A stretch of DNA of 64,000 nucleotides, taken from assembly GCA_902625715.1 (NCBI GenBank), contig CACOCP010000003.1, positions 1 to 64,000 of the forward strand, written 5' to 3'. Every line of letters starts with the position of its first letter. Position 1 is the stretch's first letter. This document shows, in pieces, positions 37,587-39,183 of the stretch. The notes below the pieces were generated by a model. That model did no database searches, had not been told where the DNA came from, and saw only the letters and a program-made list of their open reading frames with translations. The stretch is from an uncultured Pelagibacteraceae bacterium (GTDB taxonomy: Bacteria > Pseudomonadota > Alphaproteobacteria > Pelagibacterales > Pelagibacteraceae). The position numbers and the translations under genes were made by a program.

Positions 37587-38162
37587 ATGACAAAAAAATT
37601 AATAATTTTTAGATACAAAGAACTATTTAATATACTTGAAGAAATAAAGGAAAATTTTGAATTTAAATTGGAATTTTATGAGAAGGAGAGAGAATTAGAA
37701 AAATTAGAAAATGATAATTTAAGTGATTACTTAGTGATTGCTAAAAAAAAATTATCAAATTTAAAAAAGCAGATTATAATTGATAAATCTCCAATTAATA
37801 TTAACGATCTTATTCAAACTTTAAATATCAATTTTTTAAAGTCAAAATTTATAGAACAATCTAAAATAGATTTAGGAAGATATTATTTAGATCTTAATTC
37901 AAGAATATTAAATCAAAATGAAAAGGAACTTGAGCTGACAGAAAAAGAGAGCTCTATATTAATTTTTTTAAAACAGTCTAAAGATCCAGTGAAAATTGAT
38001 CAGCTTCAAGAAAAGGTTTGGGGATATAAATCTGAACTTGAAACCCATACAGTTGAAACTCACGTATATCGTCTTAGAAAGAAAATAAACGATAAATTCT
38101 ACGATAATGAATTTATTATAAGTGATAAAAAGGGTTATTTTTTAAATGAAAAAAAAAAATAG
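37587..38162 (+). CDS. Orphan OmpR-type winged-helix protein with degenerate N-terminal domain
   Basis: 191 aa from the ATG at 37587; the track's 37485 start lies inside the divergent transpeptidase gene. Residues about 110-190 are a Trans_reg_C winged helix: LELTEKESSILIFLKQSKDPVKIDQLQEKVWGY, HTVETHVYRLRKKIND and IISDKKGYFL. The first 100 residues, where a receiver would be, are lysine-rich and show no DD...D...K pattern, so phosphorylation looks impossible. No histidine kinase is adjacent. It may act as a constitutive or ligand-controlled regulator. The next gene begins within its last codons. Confidence 0.8.
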   Translation: MTKKLIIFRYKELFNILEEIKENFEFKLEFYEKERELEKLENDNLSDYLVIAKKKLSNLKKQIIIDKSPININDLIQTLNINFLKSKFIEQSKIDLGRYYLDLNSRILNQNEKELELTEKESSILIFLKQSKDPVKIDQLQEKVWGYKSELETHTVETHVYRLRKKINDKFYDNEFIISDKKGYFLNEKKK

Positions 38163-38250
38163 TGTTGCTAAAGAACTTTTTTCTAAAAAGTACAAGCCGA
38201 GAGTTGTTAAACCGAAAAAAGGTAAAGGGAGCTTTAAAAGAAAAAAATAA
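38146..38250 (+). CDS. ArfA-like alternative ribosome-rescue factor (34 aa, not in the ORF track)
   Basis: An ATG at 38146, in the +1 frame relative to the end of the regulator gene, opens a 34-codon frame ending TAA. The product is very basic: NSVAKELFSKKYKPRVV, then KPKKGKGSFKRKK. It lines up with E. coli ArfA, which as I recall reads [29 protein letters not shown]: the N-A/V-xxLL-xxxFxxRVVxxKKGKGS-F/Y-xRK pattern is shared. ArfA recruits RF2 to stalled ribosomes. Here a stop codon follows the KGKGS motif closely, so the encoded form equals the naturally truncated active form. It overlaps the regulator by 17 bp through an A11 tract. Confidence 0.72.
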   Translation: MKKKNSVAKELFSKKYKPRVVKPKKGKGSFKRKK

Positions 38251-38253
38251 TAT

Positions 38254-39183
38254 TTAAAGTCTTGCACCTATTTGTTGAATAACTTTCGACGACATTTCTG
38301 TCCCTTTTTCTAAGCTATCTTTCAATGACATATTATTTACATGCCCATGCAAAAAACCTCCTGCGAAAAGATCTCCAGCACCAGTTAAATCAACAATTTT
38401 TAAACCTTCTTTTATACCACACTCAACAACTTCATCTCCATTAACCGCTACAGCACCCTTTTCGCCTCTTGTTACAACAACTGTTTTACTGAGTGATTTG
38501 GAAAATGTTATTACATCATCAAAACTTTTTGCATCGATAAGCGACATTATTTCTTGCTCATTGGCAAAGGTAATATCTAGTTTATTTTTTACCAATTCTA
38601 AAAAGTGTGGTTTGTGTCTATCTACACAAAATTGATCAGATAAAGACATTGCCACTTTGTTTGCACTTTGAATTGCTTTTTCAAATGCCTTTTTTGGATC
38701 CCCTTCATCCCAGAGATATCCCTCTAAAAGAATAATCTCACTTCTTTTTACTGCGTCTGAACTTACATCGTCTTCATTAATTTTTCCTGCAGTTCCTAAA
38801 AATGTACACATTGTTCTTTCAGAGTCTGGTGTCACTAAAATTAAACAAGTACCTGTAGGCAGTGCCTCCTTTTTCTTGTCATAAATATATTTAACGTTTT
38901 CTTGTTTTAAACCCTCTTCGTATTTTTCACCCAATTTATCATCGCTTACTTTTCCAATAAATCCTACTTCATTTCCAAGTTGTGATAGACCAACAATAGA
39001 ATTAGCAACAGAACCACCTGAAACAGTTTTTTCGATTTTAAGATTTTTTAATAAACTTTGAAATTCACTCTCATCAAAAATTAACTTCATTGTACTTTTT
39101 GTTAATCCATTTTTTGAAATAAAATCTTCATCCACTTTGCAAATTACATCTACAATTGCGTTTCCTATTCCTAATATTTTCAT
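38254..39183 (-). CDS. PfkB-family sugar/nucleoside kinase (adenosine kinase-like)
   Basis: 309-aa ribokinase-fold kinase. Seen: ILGIGNAIVDVICKVDEDF, the substrate-side SGGSVANSIVGLSQLGNEVGFIGKVSDD, GTCLILVTPDSERTMCTFLGTAG, VVTRGEKGAVAV and the catalytic anion hole DLTGAGDLFAGGFLHG. This subgroup is common in alphaproteobacteria and is usually labelled adenosine kinase; the substrate is not certain. Last gene of the minus-strand run after nth, 2 bp from it. Confidence 0.9.
   Translation of the reverse strand: MKILGIGNAIVDVICKVDEDFISKNGLTKSTMKLIFDESEFQSLLKNLKIEKTVSGGSVANSIVGLSQLGNEVGFIGKVSDDKLGEKYEEGLKQENVKYIYDKKKEALPTGTCLILVTPDSERTMCTFLGTAGKINEDDVSSDAVKRSEIILLEGYLWDEGDPKKAFEKAIQSANKVAMSLSDQFCVDRHKPHFLELVKNKLDITFANEQEIMSLIDAKSFDDVITFSKSLSKTVVVTRGEKGAVAVNGDEVVECGIKEGLKIVDLTGAGDLFAGGFLHGHVNNMSLKDSLEKGTEMSSKVIQQIGARL

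Follow-up and report, generated by a model that had tools for sequence, protein, structure and literature searches.

A natural short form of the ribosome-rescue factor ArfA, terminated by its own stop codon, is encoded in a group of bacteria from which ArfA has been reported absent, and it has wide relatives among phages. It was found in a 64,000-nucleotide stretch of an uncultured Pelagibacteraceae genome (called the window below), where the gene is wedged between a regulator gene and a kinase gene (Table 1). With a probability of roughly 0.8, it is a functional rescue-factor gene of the ArfA family, the short peptide of which is encoded directly, stops by itself and is coupled to the regulator, rather than derived from a truncated message of the non-stop type.

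Table 1. Features of the arfA-like locus; positions are those of the window.
Feature	Position	Strand	Description	Basis or remark
arfA-like gene	38146..38250	+	34 codons + TAA; product MKKKNSVAKELFSKKYKPRVVKPKKGKGSFKRKK	PF03889, PDB ArfA chains, conservation, pN/pS
mRNA-tunnel motif KKGKGSFKRKK, codons up to the stop	38215..38247	+	five residues between KGKGS and the stop	
overlap of arfA start and regulator end	38146..38162	+	17 nt, A-rich	regulator ends GAA AAA AAA AAA TAG
degenerate OmpR/PhoB-type orphan response regulator	37587..38162	+	191 aa	Trans_reg_C domain; receiver-like N-terminus
convergent PfkB-family (ribokinase/adenosine-kinase type) sugar kinase gene	38254..39183	-		family assigned by sequence, without profile search

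Family membership and ribosome-rescue context

An earlier note on this DNA had proposed an ArfA-like gene at this place from a residue pattern and the basicity of the product. Both are borne out, the 34-aa peptide being strongly basic and carrying the ArfA pattern. It scores 27.6 bits with the Pfam ArfA model PF03889 (gathering cut-off 25.5; E = 2e-6), and the best matches in a search of solved structures are all E. coli ArfA, with a single-sequence E-value of only 0.017. When PF03889 is run against the whole genome, the frame is the sole ArfA match (E = 1.5e-5), and the peptide of a typical SAR11 relative reaches 32.2 bits. An independent profile was made from eleven non-SAR11 alphaproteobacterial relatives, which had been found by the SAR11 profile and several of which exceed the Pfam ArfA cut-off unaided. 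Among the 1,521 frames of the window, this profile gives 48.2 bits to the arfA frame and 7.2 bits to the runner-up; the best of 30,420 shuffled window frames of the same composition reaches 16.3 bits, and shuffling the peptide itself 5,000 times yields at most 13.1 bits. No match to the peptide was returned by an NCBIfam search or, up to E = 10, by the DUF7230 model (PF23876), and the GGQ-containing RF-1 domain of ArfB (YaeJ) is absent from the 34 residues. At the level of sequence, membership in the ArfA family is firm.

The alignment with E. coli ArfA (YhdL) runs without gaps from Asn14 to Lys42, a shared core with an identical KKGKGS and an aromatic residue at the position of Phe25. The counterpart of Phe25 is Y16 (in Y16-K-P-R19-V20), not F12, and Y or F is found there in all 27 aligned SAR11 sequences. 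In the same alignment the equivalents of Arg28-Val29 are mostly retained, and KKGKGS (K24-S29) and R32, which belong to the mRNA-tunnel motif KKGKGS[YF]xRK present in the window peptide, are invariant. The two proteins differ in length (72 codons in E. coli versus 34 in the window) and at both ends. At the N-terminus the peptide is nine residues shorter and thereby lacks the start of the E. coli minidomain (its first nine residues); its last residue falls at position 43 of E. coli ArfA (44 in most relatives). E. coli ArfA reportedly keeps its activity when truncated to Asn47 but loses it when the cut comes after Met40 (PMC5378476); the tail of the window peptide falls four residues short of the shortest active truncation. 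Thus, where the earlier note had a short active form encoded directly, the shortness stands and the activity is a prediction. The E. coli equivalents of the residues in the KGKGS tail bind the empty mRNA tunnel (PMC5378476), and the lysine-rich tail may compensate for the shortness. Within the minidomain, the hydrophobic patch formed in E. coli by Ala18, Leu19 and Leu24 is replaced by K9, E10 and K15 in the ungapped alignment; the role of this patch is documented, and the substitution A18T inactivates the E. coli protein (PMC5378476). Owing to these replacements and to the missing minidomain residues, activation of RF2 may differ in detail. By analogy, an activity like that of E. coli ArfA is nevertheless likely.

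As in E. coli, tmRNA and an RF2 with the ArfA contact residues are present in the genome to which the window belongs (88% complete). The tmRNA scores 230.9 bits and is confirmed by Rfam. The hydrophobic patch of ArfA contacts Val198, Phe217 and Trp319 of RF2 (PMC5378476); in the RF2 of this genome (L032), Val198 is replaced by Ile, and Phe217 and Trp319 are identical, although the conservation of the latter two is not diagnostic because both residues serve normal termination too. Ahead of the main RF2 frame, the prfB gene, near 139000 of G000:C1 (L032), appears to have the classical programmed +1 frameshift (AAGGAGTTT CTT TGA). SmpB gave no match in this 88% complete assembly despite the tmRNA, which is probably due to an assembly gap since it is found in 37 of 38 relatives. 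With ssrA present, arfB is absent: PF00472 matches nothing but RF1 and RF2, and ArfB was not found in any of 38 SAR11 genomes either. Exactly two RF-1-domain genes were found in 37 of these, each as long as a full release factor, and a single one in the other.

The host, an alphaproteobacterium, sets this ArfA apart from that of E. coli. In a survey of 2,376 Alphaproteobacteria, ArfB was found in 2,022 and ArfA in none (PMC11633108), and ArfA has likewise been reported absent from this class elsewhere (PMC10070815). These surveys relied on nhmmer with selected genes or on annotated proteomes (PMC11633108; PMC10070815), by which an overlapping frame of 34 codons would easily be overlooked. SAR11 seems to lack the ArfB of most Alphaproteobacteria and to have the ArfA reported missing there.

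Most likely, after translation coupled to the upstream regulator gene, the KGKGSFKRK tail would enter the empty mRNA channel once a ribosome has stalled at a broken mRNA end. The solved ArfA-RF2-ribosome complexes suggest by analogy that the middle of the peptide (Y16-V21) would then recruit and open RF2, the GGQ loop of which would release the nascent chain, so that ArfA would act as a back-up to tmRNA-SmpB in a lineage devoid of ArfB. A conserved ArfA-derived peptide could also bind the empty mRNA channel in a role other than RF2-dependent release, for example together with another release factor or by plugging and protecting idle ribosomes. This alternative, to which we give a small but real chance, draws on the contrast between the invariant tunnel half (KKGKGSFxRK) and the shortened RF2-activating minidomain with K and E at the positions of Ala18 and Leu19, and on phages, which retain the core yet vary the N-terminal part freely. 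However, the position of Phe25 stays aromatic, Arg28-Val29 are mostly kept and the ArfA contact residues persist in the SAR11 RF2, and a back-up of the release type is the simplest need of a genome without ArfB.

The locus, its conservation and the self-terminated form

That the frame is tucked into the end of an orphan winged-helix regulator gene, as described in the earlier note, is confirmed; it lies in the +1 frame relative to that gene. The regulator has a Pfam Trans_reg_C domain (E = 1.8e-14), and its AlphaFold model (mean pLDDT 83, pTM 0.58) matches full-length response regulators, e.g., RitR and MtrA, from which its N-terminus is probably a degenerate receiver. Only 3 nt separate the end of arfA from the stop codon of the convergent kinase gene, so that a longer ArfA tail would not fit.

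Of 397 sampled Pelagibacterales genomes, 282 have a single PF03889 match each, above the cut-off in 168. A profile of 27 SAR11 peptides matches in 305 of the 397, essentially as a single copy; counted among these are 18 weak matches that fall in a second family, as well as the sequences from which the profile was built. The gene is hence kept in about three quarters of the sampled Pelagibacterales genomes, and the named records carrying it are SAR11, i.e., Pelagibacteraceae as well as Pelagibacterales single cells and MAGs. Strong purifying selection acts on the frame: pN/pS is 0.21 among 109 distinct cores and 0.17 for the window against the rest, pN is lower than pS in all 5,886 pairs, and third codon positions dominate the pairwise differences (0.18, 0.11 and 0.42 for positions 1, 2 and 3). 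With a significant ArfA match, a conserved frame and pN/pS values of 0.17-0.21, none of the three outcomes that the earlier note had named as speaking against the gene was obtained.

The neighborhood is equally stable. In 29 of 31 loci arfA sits between the regulator on its upstream side and the kinase on its downstream side, and the regulator precedes arfA in 77 of 80 named loci, which is where the earlier note had proposed to look for the frame in other SAR11 genomes. Nine genomes lacking the gene have the kinase directly behind the regulator with nothing in between, which identifies arfA as a unit gained or lost between fixed neighbors. Genus g2 lacks the regulator and has instead an unrelated 443-aa gene whose end overlaps arfA. 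Five genomes of the same genus (G005, G011, G013, G024 and G096), each at least 95% complete, have neither the KGKGS form nor a diverged relative, so that arfA is dispensable there; with no ArfB in the set, they would depend on tmRNA-SmpB alone.

The A11 run at the junction and the +1 overlap in the window raise the question of whether the frame is a mere C-terminal extension of the regulator, reached by slippage on the A11 run with no free peptide being made. Among genomes, however, both the frame (+1 or +2) and the spacing (from overlaps to small gaps) vary while a start codon is kept, which rules out such a fusion, and a different gene lies upstream in genus g2 and in phages; the idea is accordingly very improbable. 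Although the frame is short, lysine-rich and overlapping another gene, a functionless open frame arising by chance in an A-rich gene end is ruled out by the shuffles and the codon-level selection and, given also the precise presence or absence between fixed neighbors, has a next to negligible probability.

The usual SAR11 product has 35 aa (MKKKNxIAKDLxTPKYKxRVVKPKKGKGSFKRKKK). The early stop past KGKGS, first described for the window, holds there and is general, the stop codon (TAA in 86, TAG in 22 and TGA in three) lying 5-13 residues past KGKGS in 111 of 111 host genes and exactly six past it in 82. Start codons in this set are ATG in 90, TTG in 12, GTG in eight and CTG in one. In these 111 host copies, the stop of the regulator gene mostly overlaps or abuts the start of arfA, the ATGA and TAATG types being commonest, and such overlaps are the usual sign of translational coupling.

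Non-stop arfA messages are reportedly found in other Proteobacteria too, as Schaub and colleagues are said to have described in 2012. In E. coli, a stem-loop within the arfA frame makes the message non-stop, and ArfA builds up only when trans-translation is overwhelmed (PMC8012679; PMC10107115). Unlike E. coli arfA, the SAR11 gene has no hydrophobic tail and neither a terminator nor a conserved hairpin in the frame. A terminator scan found none and RNAalifold gave no consensus pair over 14 homologs, while the single-sequence fold of the ORF plus 40 nt (z = -2.6) is without a conserved counterpart. Control by a hairpin or terminator as in E. coli was therefore rejected. As the stops follow right after KGKGS and neither a terminator nor a conserved hairpin is present, the short form is encoded in the genome. 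The gating by non-stop mRNA known from E. coli looks absent, and membership in the tmRNA-gated class of arfA genes is contradicted, as far as the sequence can tell. The suggestion in the earlier note that regulation through non-stop messages would work differently here is in this way supported, though not proven. BrfA from Bacillus and ArfT from Francisella are likewise release-factor-dependent back-up rescue factors for tmRNA (PMC6881298; PMC6299226). BrfA, which has been described as distinct from ArfA in its evolution and is set apart here on that description, is moreover made from a terminator-truncated message, of which the SAR11 gene bears no sign.

Diverged relatives and phage copies

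Related frames of 35-50 aa are found outside SAR11 in Alphaproteobacteria, as well as in SAR11 genomes lacking the KGKGS form (L245-L264, L279-L289). They follow the pattern NPxAKxLRTPKFRxKVV-KK-YxRKK, in which KGKGS is shorter by about three residues; matches are to ArfA for some, to DUF7230 (up to 42.8 bits) for others and, weakly, to both for still others. In a profile-profile comparison, the diverged peptides align to the SAR11 ArfA set with 97% probability (E = 3.8e-11). The Pfam family DUF7230 (PF23876, function unknown) comprises short basic alphaproteobacterial peptides akin to SAR11 ArfA, differing by the same loss of about three residues in the KGKGS stretch, and from these short basic sequences it is probably a remote ArfA group.

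In a scan of IMG/VR (L063-L142), at least 230 viral contigs have ArfA-like frames of several types, all short and stop-terminated and several with an N-terminal extension (MPGKWDGKSRISNDKYR..FDRIFK). Neither the host regulator nor the kinase adjoins the gene in any of 80 loci taken from these (at least 230) viral ones. One type, with 82% identity to the window peptide, occurs in HTVC010P-like phage contigs (L064:5001-5102), where it is located behind genes for an endolysin (peptidase M15) and a small product and touches both of its neighbors. Five of six peptides from phages or viral contigs pass the PF03889 cut-off. Among the phage frames, an unannotated one in Roseobacter phage CRP-212 (MRQKNPVAKILRTPRYRQRKVMPKKGKGSYKRNTKHRKETT; L295, ~38.5-39.8 kb) scores 33.3 bits and overlaps the end of gp38 in another frame, and gp30 of pelagiphage HTVC027P remains below the cut-off with 20.2 bits. 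Two ArfAs of cultured phages have been published: this gp30, transcribed early and late in the infection of the SAR11 strain HTCC1062 (PMC12753301), and gp10 of the Citromicrobium phage vB_CbaS-RXM (PMC8953757). Both are short, stop-terminated and share the core of the SAR11 peptide (NPxAK...KPKKGRGSFKR in HTVC027P, NPLAG...RPLKGRGSYTRK in RXM); in contrast to it they are phage genes, named ArfA by annotation only (PMC12753301; PMC8953757), and gp30 is longer than the SAR11 peptide by about 25 residues at the N-terminus.

Matches were also obtained to PHROG families 20887 and 37108, neither of which has a known function. A plain tblastn search with the peptide against phages found nothing, most likely because of the masking of low-complexity sequence by BLAST; the phage ArfAs were recovered by pattern search and with less lysine-rich queries, and weak tblastn matches in Acinetobacter and Salmonella phages had E-values of about 0.5 and above. 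In the isolate phages HTVC010P, Mosig, HMO-2011, Lederberg and HTVC204P, ArfA is absent from the matching regions, which marks it as variable cargo. Carriage by viruses was counted in favor of a functional rescue factor, as a cargo that can be selected for.

Implications for ribosome rescue in SAR11 and its phages

Beyond the single gene, a large overlooked family of self-terminated ArfA-type peptides can tentatively be proposed, comprising those of SAR11, of other Alphaproteobacteria and of phages, and including DUF7230. Its members would not be gated by tmRNA and would provide release-factor rescue beside trans-translation, with phage copies keeping ribosomes cycling as the mRNAs of host and phage break. 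This wider proposal is possible, though rather less than an even bet.

For the Pelagibacteraceae, which are among the most abundant bacterial groups on Earth, ArfA is the rule despite its absence in the published surveys. For the two PHROG families this suggests a likely function, and for DUF7230 a testable one. An active short form would show that a genome can encode ArfA without the feedback through non-stop mRNA that is taken as its hallmark, and the SAR11 peptide would offer a minimal natural ArfA for work on structure and mechanism.
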